DNA from: Herbidospora sakaeratensis
Lineage (GTDB): Bacteria; Actinomycetota; Actinomycetes; Streptosporangiales; Streptosporangiaceae
Direction of reading: 5' to 3'
DNA: 64,000 bases
Assembly (NCBI RefSeq): GCF_001570525.1
Contig: NZ_BBXC01000012.1
Span: forward strand, 39,140-103,139
The position numbers and the translations under genes are program-made. A model generated the notes under the pieces. That model worked only from the letters and a program-made list of their open reading frames with translations, did not search any database and was not told the origin of the DNA. Shown one piece after another: positions 31,037 to 37,238 of this stretch (its first letter is position 1; every line of letters starts with the position of its first letter).

Positions 31037-32752
31037 ATGTCCGATGGGTTGGCGACCGCGCTGAAGAGCCTGCGTGCGCAGCTCGGCCGTGACCTGTTCC
31101 CGCTCGCCATCGGGAACGTCGAGGCCGACCGCCACGCCCAGAAGGAGCTGGCCGGGCAGCTCGACGACTACCTCATCCCGCGCCTGGCCGCCATCGACGC
31201 GCCTCTGCTGGCCGTCGTCGGCGGCTCCACCGGGGCCGGCAAGTCGACGTTGGTCAACTCCCTCGTCCAGGACGACGTCACCGCCCCTGGCGTGCTCCGC
31301 CCGACGACGCTGGCCCCGACCCTGGTGGCCTCCGCGGCCGACGGGCCCTGGTTCACGTCCATGAACGTGTTGCCGGGCCTGCCGCGCTCGACCGGCGACG
31401 GCCAGCCGGGCACCCTCAAGATCGTCACGTCGCCGCAGGTCAAGCCCGGTCTGGCGCTGCTCGACGCGCCCGACATCGACTCGGTGGTCACCGCCAACCG
31501 CGAGCTCGCCGCCCAGCTGCTCGCTGCCGCCGACCTCTGGTTGTTCGTCACGACCGCCAGCCGGTACGCCGACGAGGTCCCCTGGGGCTTCCTGCGCATC
31601 GCGAGCGAACGCAGCACCGCCATGGCGGTGATCCTCCAGCGGGTGCCCGAGGAGGCCCGCGTGCCGGTCGCCGCCGACCTGCGCCGCCTGCTCAAGGAGA
31701 ACGGCCTGGCGGGCACGCCCCTGTTCGAGGTGCCGGAACTGCCGCTGCCGAGCGAACGCGCCCGGCTGCCCGAGACGGCGGTCCGGCCGATCAAACAGTG
31801 GCTCGACGGCCTCTCGGCCGACCACGAGGCCCGCGCCGACGTCGTCCGCCGGACCCTGTCGGGCGCGCTCGACAGCCTGGCCGTGCGGGTCCCGGCCCTG
31901 GCCGAGGCGGCCGACCGGCAGCTGCTCGGCGCGAACGAGCTGCGCGGCCTGGTCGAGAAGGGCTACGACGTCGGCATGGCCGACTTCGACGAGGCCATGC
32001 GCGACGGCACCCTGCTGCGCGGCGAGGTGCTGAACCGCTGGCAGGACTTCGTCGGCACCGGCGACCTCATGCGCTCCCTGGAGACCCGGGTCGGCTGGGT
32101 GCGCGACAAGCTGGTGGCCGCCTTCACCGGGCGTCCGGCCCCCGACAAACGGCTCAGGGTCGCCCTGGAGAGCGGCGTCGAGTCGCTGATCAGGGCCACC
32201 GCCGACGGGTCGGCCGAACGCGCCGTGGACGCGTGGCTCTCCACTCCGCAGGGGCGTGACCTGCTGGAACGTACCGGAATCGAAGCCGCCGGGAAGCTCG
32301 GCCGGGTGTCCGCCGACCTGCCGACCAAGGCCGCCAAGGCGGTCCGCGACTGGCAGGGTTACGTGCTCGACCTCGTCCGCGACGAGGGCGCCGACAAGCG
32401 CAGCATGGCCAGGGCCGCCTCGTTCGGGGTGAACGGCCTGGGCCTGCTGATCATGCTGACGGTGTTCGCGTCCACGGGCGGCCTGACCGGCATCGAGATC
32501 GGCGTCGCCGGCGGCACCACGGTCCTCAGCCAGAAGCTCCTGGAAGCGGTCTTCGGCGACCAGGCGGTCCGCCGCCTCACCGACGCCGCCCGCGCCAACC
32601 TCCGCCAGCGGGTCAGGGATCTGTTCGACGACGAGGCCGGGCGCTTCCACGTCCTGCTCGCCGGCATGGAGTCGACCGACACCCACGCCCTGCGGGCCGC
32701 CGCCGAGGCCGTCGAACGCCGCAAGAGCGACATTCCAGGCGGTGCCGCGTGA
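31037..32752 (+). CDS. Dynamin-like GTPase 1
   Basis: 571 residues. The P-loop is GGSTGAGKST (~residues 62-71), switch I Thr lies in VLRPTTLAPTLV, the G3-like motif is LLDAPDIDS, and helical regions follow. Near residues 465-505 there is a hydrophobic hairpin (GLGLLIMLTVFASTGGLTGIEIGVAGG) that could insert in membrane. It overlaps the next GTPase gene by GTGA. Paired dynamin-like genes with membrane segments (DynA/DynB) act in sporulation septation in Streptomyces; equivalence here is only a possibility. Confidence 0.8.
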   Translation: MSDGLATALKSLRAQLGRDLFPLAIGNVEADRHAQKELAGQLDDYLIPRLAAIDAPLLAVVGGSTGAGKSTLVNSLVQDDVTAPGVLRPTTLAPTLVASAADGPWFTSMNVLPGLPRSTGDGQPGTLKIVTSPQVKPGLALLDAPDIDSVVTANRELAAQLLAAADLWLFVTTASRYADEVPWGFLRIASERSTAMAVILQRVPEEARVPVAADLRRLLKENGLAGTPLFEVPELPLPSERARLPETAVRPIKQWLDGLSADHEARADVVRRTLSGALDSLAVRVPALAEAADRQLLGANELRGLVEKGYDVGMADFDEAMRDGTLLRGEVLNRWQDFVGTGDLMRSLETRVGWVRDKLVAAFTGRPAPDKRLRVALESGVESLIRATADGSAERAVDAWLSTPQGRDLLERTGIEAAGKLGRVSADLPTKAAKAVRDWQGYVLDLVRDEGADKRSMARAASFGVNGLGLLIMLTVFASTGGLTGIEIGVAGGTTVLSQKLLEAVFGDQAVRRLTDAARANLRQRVRDLFDDEAGRFHVLLAGMESTDTHALRAAAEAVERRKSDIPGGAA

Positions 32753-34335
32753 GGCTCCTGCGGCGCCGCTCCCACATTTCCCTGGACGACCGCCTCAAGG
32801 CCCTCGGCGCCGCCGCCGACCTGGCCGACGGCCGGGTGGCCCGGGAACCGGTCGACCACGCCCGCGCCGTCGTCGCCCGGGCCGGCGCCCGCGCGGGCCT
32901 GTCGGTCGACCACACGGCGGTCGCCCTGGCGGGAGCCACCGGCAGCGGCAAGTCGTCGTTGTTCAACGTGCTGGCCGGCGGCGACGTCGCCACGGTCGGG
33001 GTGACCCGCCCCACCACCTCCAAGGCCCAGGGCGCCCTCTGGTCGCCGGAGGGCTCGGGCCCGCTGCTCGACTGGCTCGACGTGCCCACCCGGCACGTCG
33101 TGCACTCCGACGACCTGGCCGGGCTGATCCTCCTCGACCTGCCCGACCACGACAGCATCGAGCTCTCCCACCGCCTGGAGGTCGACCGCCTGGTCGCCGT
33201 CGTCGACCAGCTCGTCTGGGTCATGGACCCCCAGAAGTACGCCGACGCCGCCATCCACGAGCGCTACCTGCGCCCCCTGGCCAGGCACGCCGACGTGACC
33301 CTCGTGGTCCTCAATCAGATCGACCGCCTCCCGCCGCACGCCATCCGCCGCTGCCTCGACGACCTGCGCCGCCTGCTGGCCGAAGACGGCCTTCGCGACG
33401 TGCCGATCCTGCCCGTGTCGACGGTGACGGGAGAGGGCGTACAAGAGCTGAAAGACCTGCTCACCGAACTGGTCAGCCGTCGCCACGCGTGGTCGTCGCG
33501 GCTGGAGGCCGACACGGCCGGCGCCGCCGACCACCTGATCGCCGCCTCCGGCGGCCTGCCCGCGTCGGACCCGCGCACCCCCGACCACGACGCCCTCGAT
33601 GAGGCCCTGGCCGAAGCGGCCGGGGTGCCCCTGGTGGTCCGGGCCGTCGCGAAGGCCCACCGGCACCGCGCCGTGGCGGCGATGGGCTGGCCGGTGACCC
33701 GCTGGCTGCGCCGTTTCCGCCCCGACCCCCTGCGCCGCCTGCACCTCCAGCGCCCCACGACGGGCCGCACCTCCCTGCCCCAGGCGTCGGCCATCCAGAC
33801 CTCCCAGATGGACGCGGCCGTCAGAGCCGTCGGCCTGGAAGCGGCCGAGGGCGTCCCGGAACCCTGGGCCGCCGCCATCCGCCGCTCAGCCCGCGAACAC
33901 CACGAGGGCCTGGCCGACGCCCTCGACCAGGCGGTCGGCCGCAGCGACCTCGGCATGGAACGCCGCCCGTTGTGGTGGCGCGCCGTGAACGCCCTCCAAT
34001 GGCTGCTGTTCGCGACGCTGCTGGCGGGCCTGGGCTGGCTGGTGGTCCTTTACGTGCTGGGCTTCCTGCAACTGCCGAGCCTCTACACACCGACGGCCGG
34101 AGACGTGCCGTGGCCGACGACGCTGCTGGTGGGCGCGGCGGTCATCGGGGTGGTGGTGGCCCTGCTGACCCGAGGGCTGGCCTGGATCGGCAGCAGGCGG
34201 AAGGCCCGGAAGTCGGCCAGGGTGCTGCGCCAGAACATCTCCGACGTGGCCGACCGAATGGTCATCACCCCGATCGACCACGAACAGACCCGCTACGCCA
34301 CCTTCGTCCAGCAGGCCAAGACGGCGAGCAGCTAA
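32749..34335 (+). CDS. Dynamin-like/YfjP-type GTPase 2
   Basis: 528 residues. P-loop GATGSGKSS, switch I Thr in VTRPTTSKAQ, G3 LLDLPDHDS and G4 NQID are visible. Two membrane helices lie near residues 415-470 (WLLFATLLAGLGWLVVLYVLGFL and LLVGAAVIGVVVALLTRGLAW). It starts at a GTG overlapping the stop of GTPase 1, so equimolar synthesis and a hetero-complex are likely. The stop codon lies inside the first operator site of the Fic promoter array. Confidence 0.82.
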   Translation: MRLLRRRSHISLDDRLKALGAAADLADGRVAREPVDHARAVVARAGARAGLSVDHTAVALAGATGSGKSSLFNVLAGGDVATVGVTRPTTSKAQGALWSPEGSGPLLDWLDVPTRHVVHSDDLAGLILLDLPDHDSIELSHRLEVDRLVAVVDQLVWVMDPQKYADAAIHERYLRPLARHADVTLVVLNQIDRLPPHAIRRCLDDLRRLLAEDGLRDVPILPVSTVTGEGVQELKDLLTELVSRRHAWSSRLEADTAGAADHLIAASGGLPASDPRTPDHDALDEALAEAAGVPLVVRAVAKAHRHRAVAAMGWPVTRWLRRFRPDPLRRLHLQRPTTGRTSLPQASAIQTSQMDAAVRAVGLEAAEGVPEPWAAAIRRSAREHHEGLADALDQAVGRSDLGMERRPLWWRAVNALQWLLFATLLAGLGWLVVLYVLGFLQLPSLYTPTAGDVPWPTTLLVGAAVIGVVVALLTRGLAWIGSRRKARKSARVLRQNISDVADRMVITPIDHEQTRYATFVQQAKTASS

Positions 34336-34390
34336 TTCTGGCGAACTTAGCAGCTAATTAGCTGCTAATCTGAGCAGAATTAGCAGCTAG
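34325..34390. promoter_or_regulatory. 66-bp dyad-symmetric array of four TTAGCNGCTAA operators upstream of fic
   Basis: Four 11-bp near-palindromes of the form TTAGC-N-GCTAA are centred at 34330 (9 of 11 bases), 34352 (perfect), 34363 (perfect) and 34385 (10 of 11). Centre spacings are 22, 11 and 22 bp, so all sites face the same side of the helix. ATTCTG (34335-34340) and CAGAAT (34375-34380) extend the symmetry, giving one dyad centred between 34357 and 34358. The fic start codon is 16 bp downstream. TAATCT (34366-34371) could be a -10 box covered by the third site. Confidence 0.8.
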
Positions 34391-34405
34391 CGGGCGGAGG
34401 TCCCG

Positions 34406-35740
34406 GTGCGTATTCCCCAGCCGCCTCCACCGCTGTCGCCGATCCTGGCCTCCCTTCAGGGGGATCGTCTCGTCGAGGTGATGCGCCACGGCATGTCGAT
34501 CGCAGGTGAGCGATACCTGCCCTGGGACGAGTTCCGCTGGCGTCCGGTCCCCGAAGGGCTCACCCTCGAGGAGTGGTGGGCGGCCACGAAGATCGCCCGC
34601 TCGGTGGTCCGGCGGCGGTTGCCGTTGCGATTCCAGGACGACGTCCCTTTCGGCTACGCCCTGCCCGACGAGGTGCTGCGCGGCATCGAGAACGTGGCCA
34701 AGCAGACCAGCGGCCGAATCGGGGTCCCCGAGCCGGTCACCCACGACGCGCCGACCCGCGACCAGTACGTCGTCAACTCGCTCATCGAAGAGGCCATCAC
34801 CTCCTCCCAGCTCGAGGGCGCCTCGACGACCTACCAGGTCGCGAAACACATGTTGCGGACCGGACGCAACCCCCGCACCCGCGACGAGCTGATGATCCTC
34901 AACAACTACCTGGCCATGCGCCGCGTGGGCGAGCTGAGGGAGGAACGCCTCACACCGGCGCTGATCGCCGAGATCCACCGCATCGTCACCGAAGGCACTC
35001 TCGACGACCCCGCCACGGCCGGCCGCCTGCAGCTGCCCGGTGAAGAACGGGTCGTCGTCATGGACATGGAGGGAAACGTCCTGCACGCCCCGCCGCCGGC
35101 GGAACAACTGCCGGAGCGGATGGAGGCGCTCTGCGCCTTCGCCAACGGAGAGAGCGGCGCCTCCTACGTGCCGCCGGTCGTCCGCGCCATCGTCGTGCAC
35201 TTCATGTTGTCCTTCGACCACCCGTTCGTCGACGGCAACGGCCGCACCGCCCGCGTGCTCTTCTACTGGTCGATGCTGAACCAGGACTACTGGCTGACCG
35301 AGTTCCTGTCGATCTCCCGCCTGATCAAGCAGAAACAGGCCCAATACGGCCGCAGCTTCCTGCACTGCGAACAGGACGAGGGCGACCTCACCTACTTCAT
35401 CGACGCCCAACTCGGCATCATCAGCCAGGCCATCACCGACCTGCACGACTACCTCGACCGCAAGGTCGGCCAGACGCGCAATCTCCAGCGGGCCGTGTCC
35501 GCGCTCGCCGGTCACCTCAACCATCGCCAGATCGCGCTCCTCCAGAACGCGATCAAGAAGTCCGACGCCCGCTACACCGTCCGGTCGCACTCACGGAGTC
35601 ACAACATCACCGTGCAGACCGCGCGCACCGACCTGCAGGCCCTGGAAACCAGGGGCCTGCTCACCAGGGTTCCCGAAGGCCGGGGCTTCGCGTGGCTGCC
35701 GGTCGGCGACCTCCGCAAAGTCCTCGGTCTCGCCGGCTAG
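34406..35740 (+). CDS. Fic family protein (AMP transferase) with C-terminal winged-helix domain
   Basis: 444 residues, GTG start with GGAGG 5 nt upstream. The catalytic Fic motif is HPFVDGNGRTAR. The inhibitory motif (S/T)xxxE(G/N) appears as SSQLEG ahead of the Fic core, so this is a class II Fic that blocks its own ATP site. The C-terminal ~90 residues look like a winged helix (LNHRQIALLQNAI, then ITVQTARTDLQALETRGLL). With the symmetric operator array directly upstream, the protein probably binds its own promoter. Its AMPylation target is unknown. The stop overlaps that of the convergent SPFH gene in CTAG. Confidence 0.92.
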   Translation: MRIPQPPPPLSPILASLQGDRLVEVMRHGMSIAGERYLPWDEFRWRPVPEGLTLEEWWAATKIARSVVRRRLPLRFQDDVPFGYALPDEVLRGIENVAKQTSGRIGVPEPVTHDAPTRDQYVVNSLIEEAITSSQLEGASTTYQVAKHMLRTGRNPRTRDELMILNNYLAMRRVGELREERLTPALIAEIHRIVTEGTLDDPATAGRLQLPGEERVVVMDMEGNVLHAPPPAEQLPERMEALCAFANGESGASYVPPVVRAIVVHFMLSFDHPFVDGNGRTARVLFYWSMLNQDYWLTEFLSISRLIKQKQAQYGRSFLHCEQDEGDLTYFIDAQLGIISQAITDLHDYLDRKVGQTRNLQRAVSALAGHLNHRQIALLQNAIKKSDARYTVRSHSRSHNITVQTARTDLQALETRGLLTRVPEGRGFAWLPVGDLRKVLGLAG

Positions 35741-36804
35741 GCCCGGTCGCGCGACCGGTCGAGGTCGCCCAGTGGGTCGGGCACCGCCTGGCCGCGTTCG
35801 ATCGACCTCGGCAGCGAATCGGCCTCCGCCTCCGCCTTGGCCTCCGCCGCGGCCGCCTCCGCCTCGCGCACCGCCTCAGAACCGGCCGGACGGTCGCGGT
35901 CGGGCTGCTCCCTGGTCGCCGCCGACTGCGGCAGCGCCTCGGTGAACGCCTTCGACACGCCCTGGAGCGCCGACGTCACCTCCGACGGGATCACCCAGAA
36001 CGTGTTGCCCGGGCCGGACGCGAGCTGCGGCAACATCTGGAGGTACTGGTAGGCCAGCAGCTTCGGGTCGGGGTCGTTGCGGTGCACGGCCTGGAAGACC
36101 TCGTCGATCGCCTGCGACTGGCCCTCGGCCTTGAGGATCTGGCTGGTGCGCTCACCTTCGGCGCGCAGGATGGCGCTCTGCTTCTCGCCCTCGGCCGTGA
36201 GGATCTGCGACTGCCGCAGGCCCTCGGCGGTCAGGATGGCCGCGCGCTTGTCGCGTTCGGCGCGCATCTGCTTCTCCATCGCCTCCTTGATGGTCTTGGG
36301 AGGGTCGATGGCCTTGATCTCCACCCGGTTGACCCGGATGCCCCACTTGCCGGTCGCCTCGTCGAGCACGCCCCGCAGCTGGCTGTTGATGGTGTCTCTG
36401 CTGGTCAGCGTCTTCTCCAGGTCCATGCCGCCGACCACGTTGCGCAACGTCGTCACGGTCAGCTGCTCGACGCCCTGGATGAAGTTCGCTATCTCGTACG
36501 CCGCCGCGCGCGGGTCGGTCACCTGGAAGTACAGGACCGTGTCGATGTCGACGACCAGGTTGTCCTCGGTGATCACCGGCTGCGGCTTGAAGCTGACGAC
36601 CTGTTCACGCAGGTCTATGAGCGGCCGCACCCGGTCGATGTAGGGGATCACGAAGTTCAGGCCGGGATCGAGGGTGCGGCTGTAGCGGCCCAGGCGCTCG
36701 ACGTTGGCGGCGCGCGCCTGAGGGACGATCCGCACCGTCCGGAAGACGGTGACGACCGCGAACATCGCGACCAGGATCAGGATGACGAGCAGCGCGACTT
36801 CCAT
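35737..36804 (-). CDS. SPFH/band 7 domain protein (stomatin-like)
   Basis: 355 residues from an ATG at 36804, which has GGGAG 7 nt upstream; a GTG at 36810 overlaps the NfeD stop but is too close to that site. One N-terminal helix (ALLVILILVAMFAVVTVF) is followed by the SPFH domain (VPQARAANVERLGRYSRTLDPGLNFVIPY onwards). A coiled coil rich in AEG repeats (ILTAEGLRQSQILTAEG) and an Ala/Glu-rich tail complete it. Such proteins form membrane microdomain scaffolds and pair with NfeD partners, as here. Confidence 0.93.
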   Translation of the reverse strand: MEVALLVILILVAMFAVVTVFRTVRIVPQARAANVERLGRYSRTLDPGLNFVIPYIDRVRPLIDLREQVVSFKPQPVITEDNLVVDIDTVLYFQVTDPRAAAYEIANFIQGVEQLTVTTLRNVVGGMDLEKTLTSRDTINSQLRGVLDEATGKWGIRVNRVEIKAIDPPKTIKEAMEKQMRAERDKRAAILTAEGLRQSQILTAEGEKQSAILRAEGERTSQILKAEGQSQAIDEVFQAVHRNDPDPKLLAYQYLQMLPQLASGPGNTFWVIPSEVTSALQGVSKAFTEALPQSAATREQPDRDRPAGSEAVREAEAAAAEAKAEAEADSLPRSIERGQAVPDPLGDLDRSRDRA

Positions 36805-36806
36805 GG

Positions 36807-37238
36807 TCACTCCCGAGGGTAGACAAGCGCGGTGGCGCCCTCGATCTCGAACACGTCGACGGTGGCGCCGACCGGGATGACGAGGGTCTCGTCATAGGCG
36901 CGGGCCGACCATTCCTCGCCGCCGATCTTGACCCGGCCGCCTCGGCCGGTGACCTCGTGGGTCACGTACGCCGACTTGCCGACCAGGGCCGAGACGCCGA
37001 ACCTCTGGGCGGGGGCCTGCTTCAGGTGCCGCATCGCCAGGGGGCGCAGGCCGAGCAGGCCGCCGCCGGACGCCAGGACGAACACGAGCAGTTGCAGGCC
37101 GGGCGGCAGCCCTATCGCGGCCACGCCCGCCGTCAGCAGGGCCGCGACCGAGATGATGCCCATGGCGGCGGTGAGCGTGAAGAGCTCCGCGACTCCCAGA
37201 GCCGCCGCCAGGATCAACCACACGATCCACGAGTCCAT
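36807..37238 (-). CDS. NfeD family protein
   Basis: 143 residues. Three membrane helices in the first ~75 residues are followed by the NfeD OB-fold (LVGKSAYVTHEVTGRGGRVKIGGEEWSARAYD to VDVFEIEGATALV). It is the short form without the ClpP-like protease. Its stop lies 3 bp before the SPFH start, so the pair is translationally linked. NfeD OB domains bind SPFH partners. Confidence 0.93.
   Translation of the reverse strand: MDSWIVWLILAAALGVAELFTLTAAMGIISVAALLTAGVAAIGLPPGLQLLVFVLASGGGLLGLRPLAMRHLKQAPAQRFGVSALVGKSAYVTHEVTGRGGRVKIGGEEWSARAYDETLVIPVGATVDVFEIEGATALVYPRE

Follow-up and report, generated by a model that had tools for sequence, protein, structure and literature searches.

Probable paired operators upstream of winged-helix fic genes, and a partial residue-to-base code linking them to the Fic protein's predicted recognition helix

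A 66-bp near-palindrome directly upstream of a fic gene in Herbidospora sakaeratensis very probably serves as an autoregulatory operator, at which two dimers of the encoded Fic protein would occupy two adjacent sites near the gene's start and repress its transcription. The conserved unit, as read from sequence comparison, is a 7-bp half-site, inverted around an 11-bp spacer; two such operators are present in the window (the whole 64,000-nucleotide stretch analyzed). Comparison of homologous loci supports the conservation of this architecture, its link to fic, and a covariation between operator letters and protein residues that amounts to a partial recognition code.

The Fic Protein and its Upstream Array

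The fic gene (34406..35740, + strand) encodes 444 residues from a GTG start codon, and a GGAGG on the same strand (34396..34400), 5 bp before the GTG, was recognized by eye as its likely ribosome-binding site. The catalytic HPFx(D/E)GN(G/K)R motif is present as HPFVDGNGR (residues 272-280, by motif match; codons 35219..35245, +), and the inhibitory (S/T)xxxE(G/N) motif as SSQLEG (residues 133-138; codons 34802..34819, +). The latter lies N-terminal to the Fic core, a position for which we use the label class II as in the available text of PMC10628234. Across 63 aligned rows, H272, F274, D276, G277, N278, G279 and R280 are invariant, as are S133, E137 and G138 of the inhibitory motif; judged by sequence, the two motifs are those of a self-inhibited AMPylase.

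Searches of Pfam and NCBIfam gave no sequence family matching the C-terminal part of the protein, Pfam returning the Fic domain alone (PF02661, E 3.9e-18). An AlphaFold model (63 sequences, single chain; mean pLDDT 90, pTM 0.88) predicts a C-terminal winged helix-turn-helix (wHTH) at residues 373-432 (35522..35701, +), comprising helices 373-384, 392-399 and 403-415 and strands 419-424 and 427-432. A prior sequence-only reading of this DNA had proposed both the winged helix and the inhibitory motif, and the model and alignment agree with it. The recognition helix, assigned from the model and the covariation described below, spans residues 403-415 (35612..35650, +) and starts V403-Q404. Fold matches to SoFic (Shewanella oneidensis), M. 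marinum Fic 7cb8, CbFic2 (Coxiella burnetii, 8cil) and 7xux extend to residue 432 or beyond. SoFic, of the same architecture, is matched to residue 433-434 with an rmsd of 3.7-4.2, CbFic2 over residues 75-433 with 10.0, and 7xux, which we take to be the Yersinia pseudotuberculosis protein CccR from its 380-residue length and title, over residues 77-432 with 6.0 and 18% identity. The higher rmsd values of 7xux and 8cil reflect a rotation of the domains relative to one another.

The stretch at 34325-34390 (66 bp) is the best self-complementary 66-mer in the window, with 26 of 33 pairs matching its own reverse complement and 23 in the runner-up. The sequence-only reading had described it as four 11-bp TTAGC-N-GCTAA sites on one DNA face within a fully symmetric whole. 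The centres given (34330, 34352, 34363 and 34385), their 22/11/22 spacing and the ATTCTG/CAGAAT of the gaps are all present in the sequence, but the symmetry is that of a near-palindrome and two of the four 11-mers are exact (34347-34357 and 34358-34368). The exact word TTAGCNGCTAA has two copies, both in the array, and none elsewhere in the 8.6-Mb genome; the fourth 11-mer, TTAGCAGCTAG, carries one mismatch to TTAGC-N-GCTAA, and the first, CGAGCAGCTAA, carries two and overlaps the upstream gene's stop TAA (34333-34335). With at most one mismatch, TTAGC-N-GCTAA matches three times in the window against a shuffle mean of 0.05, and 0 of 100 shuffles reached three.

Two predicted operators, neither with an assigned strand, account for this layout. 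O1 (34329..34353, centre 34341) pairs CAGCTAA (34329-34335) with TTAGCAG (34347-34353) across 11 bp, its centre lying 65 bp upstream of the fic start codon, and the stop codon of the upstream GTPase gene falls inside its first half-site. O2 (34362..34386, centre 34374) is the perfect repeat CTGCTAA (34362-34368)-11 bp-TTAGCAG (34380-34386), centred 32 bp upstream of the start codon, and its word and spacer architecture recurs at homologous fic genes. A central palindrome, TTAGCAGCTAATTAGCTGCTAA (34347..34368, likewise strandless), marks where the inner half-site of O1 adjoins that of O2; it is present in the window's close relatives and is not the form typical of the whole family. The four apparent 11-mers are thus two operators so close together that their inner half-sites make a third palindrome.

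Operators in Front of Homologous fic Genes

Homologs were drawn from relatives (35 of 60 genomes matching, few of them full-length), from the class (E <= 1e-30; 10 of 394 genomes), and from a wider scan of 84,980 species genomes, which contributed the best 80 of 432 relatives. The resulting 87 non-duplicate loci, which exclude L020, seven duplicates, and L017 with its truncated gene, are no census. In the 250 bp upstream of fic, 42 of the 87 loci have an inverted repeat with perfect 7-bp arms and an 11-bp spacer, where shuffles lead one to expect 1.7 and coding stretches of the same length give 2 of 87. Repeat counts are also elevated at adjacent odd spacers, because longer arms have a common centre, and at even spacers of 20-26, as expected from paired operators. 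Common half-site words are CTACTAA, CTGCTAA, ATGCTAA, CTATCAA and CTCCTAA. The sequence-only reading had itself named conservation upstream of homologous fic genes as its test, and run in this way the test found that conservation.

Among the 63 loci with a perfect repeat, 37 carry two operators, 1 carries three and 25 carry one; in 13 of them the centre of the proximal operator falls 30-34 bp ahead of the start codon. The inter-operator distance is 45-49 bp in 22 of 39 measured cases and 33 bp in four, namely the window and three other loci, which indicates that the phasing is specific to one clade. These distances, together with the 7-bp half-sites and 11-bp spacer that the homologs keep, led us to reject four equal, helically phased 11-bp sites as the conserved unit; the data do not support their placement on one DNA face, noted in the sequence-only reading, as the organizing principle.

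In the window, fic lies between two GTPase genes (Dynamin_N; MMR_HSR1; 31037-34335) and a facing Band_7/NfeD pair (35737-37238). Elsewhere the array accompanies homologous fic genes amid unrelated gene neighborhoods in many phyla. No conserved partner gene was found among 64 upstream and 64 downstream neighbors, picked by ORF length from 73 loci: among the matches listed (the first 25 of 91 upstream families and the first 25 of 72 downstream), no Pfam family exceeds 2/64 upstream or 4/64 downstream. Restriction genes lie downstream of some fic homologs (ResIII in 4/64, type I HSDR_N in 2/64). By eye, four Fic homologs with the helix ETARQ (L019, L056, L058, L061) have CTCCCAG/CTGGGAG or CTCCAAG words, 9-11 bp apart, in place of the 11-bp-spacer repeat; at L019 the CTCCCAG/CTGGGAG block is present twice.

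Covariation of Operator Letters with the Recognition Helix

Half-sites were called blind in 76 of the 87 training loci, 41 of them perfect; the other 11 gave no repeat call, and several calls, here as in the held-out set described below, are visibly spurious. Mutual information was computed between each half-site base and each protein column, the remaining columns acting as the control for shared ancestry. Residue 403 ranks first of 441 protein columns for base 3. Residue 404 leads for two bases, base 4 (among 442 columns) and base 7 (among 441), and at base 5 it comes second by z and third by excess information; at bases 1, 2 and 6 neither residue leads among the protein columns. Residues 403 and 404 are the first two of the modeled recognition helix, where base contacts would be expected.

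Two rules were derived from the viewed training loci and fixed in writing before any held-out locus was fetched. By the first, Tyr403 predicts A at base 3, and any other residue predicts a base other than A; by the second, Gln404 predicts CT at bases 4-5, Ala, Gly or Asn predicts TC, and Asp predicts CC. A rule for Glu404 (rule iii) stands outside the scored set. Held-out loci came from two other classes (286 and 369 genomes, 13 and 39 of them matching), and were fetched from 13/13 and 30/39 of the matching genomes. Subtracting five loci with more than 90% identity to training, one without the helix and three without a repeat call (3 of 36 with the helix) reduced the 42 loci to 33, among whose proteins L159 and L162 are 89% identical to a training protein.

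The rule for residue 403 was correct in 28 of 32 held-out loci (permutation mean 0.56, with 0 of 5000 permutations doing as well), including 22/22 at perfect repeats. The rule for residue 404 was correct in 22 of 32 (permutation mean 0.34; 0/5000 as good), and in 15 of 22 at perfect repeats (1/5000 as good). Five of its 10 misses among the 32 come from one clade with the helix YDxARK and the half-site ATACTTG; this group (L177, L180, L183-L185) shows a specificity beyond the rules. At perfect repeats in both sets, Tyr403 occurs with A in 33 of 34 cases and a non-Tyr residue with another base in 27 of 29. Training and new loci were also pooled in a tree built on the Fic part of the protein only, and independent pairs differing at residue 403 were compared: of 9 pairs, base 3 changes in the expected way in 6.9, in the opposite way in 0.2, and does not differ in 1.9 (median p 0.016). 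In the same test, residue 404 shows the expected direction without reaching significance (median p 0.065 for Gln/CT and 0.125 for Ala-Gly-Asn/TC). Read from the sequences, residues 403 and 404 and the operator letters form a partial residue-to-base code, legible in genomes across distant bacteria.

Occurrence of the Operator across Genomes

Exact GCTAA-N11-TTAGC occurs at two sites only in the window's genome, O1 and O2, and with one mismatch at 8 places among the matches listed. Allowing up to two mismatches gives 320 places against 1091 for the reversed pattern, so that looser matches are uninformative. A regulon in the same genome was considered and rejected, the exact word-pair being confined to the two fic operators.

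Exact CTGCTAA-N11-TTAGCAG was found in 12 of 297 family genomes, one each, and the reversed control pattern once among the matches listed. Nine of the 12 stand directly before fic (the copy behind the one in genome G033 is damaged), two at syntenic sites without fic, and one elsewhere. Seven were previously known loci (L202, L205-L208, L213, and L210, which resembles L053); the five new ones comprise three at fic (L209, L211, L212), one at a fic-less site (L203) and one elsewhere (L204). By eye, the exact operator of L204 (1501-1525) precedes a non-fic gene starting MIVITGANGRLGR, and possibly serves a regulator from a different family. CTACTAA-N11-TTAGTAG with at most one mismatch was confined to fic in the L071 and L112 genomes, the positions in L112 agreeing with those from the wider scan; four further genomes with differing operators of their own had none.

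One perfect operator-like repeat, AGCTGCTA-N13-TAGCAGCT, stands isolated at G000:C9:591906-591934 (L131, L193), about 50 bp before a tRNA-Tyr gene and with a spacer that resembles the first window spacer reversed; its presence away from fic weighs against the favored explanation. The homolog search of relatives found no second close fic in the G000 genome; the repeat is perhaps the scar of a lost copy.

Arrays Retained without fic

Within the genus, 7 of 7 genomes have a whole or partial array at the corresponding position, whereas fic itself is intact in four (G000, G002, G003, G004), truncated in G005, and absent from G001 and G006, which have at best distant Fic matches (E 1.3e-5 and 2.2e-4). 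The tree built from the neighboring GTPase gene pairs G001 with G005 (96/96), within fic-bearing lineages, and G006 with G002 (100/100), placements which suggest that fic has probably disappeared on more than one occasion, leaving the array behind. The whole array of G006 (L192 1501-1562) is inverted relative to the window, as judged from its spacers, and that of G001 (L195) forms the entire gap between two converging neighbor genes. A further fic-less array, in G1121 (L203), follows what is, judged by eye, the same upstream gene as in G033. Arrays of this kind are the chief argument against the array depending strictly on fic. Recent fic loss is their simplest reading, by which the array can outlive the protein for some time; those of G001, G006 and G1121 may also have a separate role. 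In the window, GCTAG is present both at the array end and at the fic stop codon, and would suit a short-repeat deletion.

Predicted Autorepression and Alternative Explanations

Our analysis suggests that this winged-helix AMPylase, self-inhibited and of class II, would bind as one dimer per 7-bp inverted repeat. The two operators immediately precede the ribosome-binding site, so that two bound dimers would span the promoter region and switch off transcription of their own gene. No sigma-70-like promoter was found in 34200-34420. Residues 403 and 404 would read base 3 and bases 4-5 of the half-site, respectively, such that Val-Gln would read the CTGCTAA of the window and, elsewhere, Tyr-Gln would read CTACTAA and Tyr-Ala CTATCAA. 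That Fic itself binds the array, as the sequence-only reading had supposed, is strongly supported by comparison, given the unrelated gene neighborhoods in which the array accompanies fic and the covariation of its letters with the recognition helix. From this comparison we infer binding, the stoichiometry of two dimers, and repression. The sequence-only reading also raised, as a hypothesis, a tie between occupancy and the AMPylation or oligomer state of the protein.

The palindrome might instead act as an RNA or as a terminator working in both directions, placed between the upstream GTPase gene and the Band_7 gene that faces it, its link to fic being incidental. The strand of the array folds well (z -3.12, with 1 of 200 shuffles as good), and in G001, without fic, it alone separates two converging genes; yet neither a terminator-like site nor an Rfam family was found at the array, and on this ground the RNA or terminator role was rejected. 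The same words, moreover, precede fic amid unrelated neighbors at distances, mostly 45-49 bp, that do not make one long hairpin, and an RNA role would not predict letters that track residues of a recognition helix, all of which makes this explanation very unlikely. It is likewise very unlikely that a separately encoded regulator owns the operators, with fic merely its target. Other regulator families can bind similar short palindromes, and the exact operator at L204 adjoins a gene other than fic; however, no family listed among the neighbors is frequent enough to be a conserved partner, and Fic column 403 tops all tested columns for base 3, in a rule that held at new loci.

A different question is whether repression is what the operator chiefly does. 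It could mainly be an allosteric brake, holding DNA-bound dimers in an inactive or deAMPylating state, with repression secondary. In CbFic2, according to the available text of PMC10628234, DNA binding via the HTH shifts AMPylation to deAMPylation, and the invariance of the inhibitory motif would fit such a brake. The operators nevertheless sit at a repressor-like position, as the proximal centres noted above indicate, and the authors of CccR, in the text available, hold its regulation and toxicity to be independent (PMC9755527); we regard the brake as the main function as unlikely. Somewhat speculatively, autorepression and enzyme control could be joined in a one-gene switch present in many phyla, though we doubt it: the catalytic state of the AMPylase would be set by its own paired operator, the bound form leaving the gene silent and the enzyme inactive, and invasion, degradation or titration of the DNA would free the dimers, so that synthesis and AMPylation start together. 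The operator would then diverge with residues 403 and 404, giving each lineage a private orthogonal pair.

Relation to Known Fic Systems

Autorepression by a Fic-HTH protein is already known from CccR, which, as described in the available text of PMC9755527, represses the gene that encodes it by binding an inverted repeat with its HTH (EMSA, footprint, lacZ fusion), and requires the dimer to do so. CccR resembles the window Fic in its Fic domain, C-terminal HTH and inverted-repeat operator before its own gene. Its operator differs, being AGATAATCAT-N26-ATGATAATCT, with 10-bp arms and a 26-bp spacer, one per promoter, in contrast to the 7-bp arms, 11-bp spacer and two operators here. The window system thus appears to work like CccR and is not assigned to it. 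That source describes CccR for one protein, without a family-wide operator or recognition code, and a search of the open-licence literature gave no description of a family-wide paired operator or residue-to-base code. As far as that literature tells, these two features are new, so that the novelty claimed by the sequence-only reading holds for the operator itself and not for Fic-HTH autorepression through an inverted repeat. The idea that HTH-Fic fusions regulate fic was proposed in 2009 (PMC2686095, as available).

CbFic2 is likewise described as a class II Fic whose C-terminal wHTH binds DNA, in experiments with random DNA that alter its enzyme activity; the available text of PMC10628234 reports no operator of its own. 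Fic proteins with a DNA-binding tail are widespread, and in the sources available a defined operator existed previously for CccR alone. Here the operator, its half-site, its spacer and a partial code could be read from genomes and checked on held-out loci. Cognate DNA of this kind allows one to ask whether DNA binding controls AMPylation, which the available text leaves open for CbFic2 and CccR (PMC10628234), and the homologs offer a natural set of orthogonal repressor-operator pairs.

In phd-doc and other toxin-antitoxin systems, too, a Fido-domain gene is negatively autoregulated by way of an operator; here, by contrast, a single polypeptide would be both regulator and enzyme, and no conserved partner gene was found. 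The PADLOC profile for SoFic, which has no stated cut-off, matches the window Fic at E 5.6e-42, and the NCBIfam SoFic equivalog scores it at 45.6 bits, below the cut-off of 550. Sofic is an abortive-infection toxin according to the available text of PMC12249575, and SoFic DNA binding had not been demonstrated according to that of PMC10628234. Fic homologs also occur in 15 plasmid records (identity 30.6-35.8%, E <= 1e-40) and 2 phage records (E <= 1e-15).
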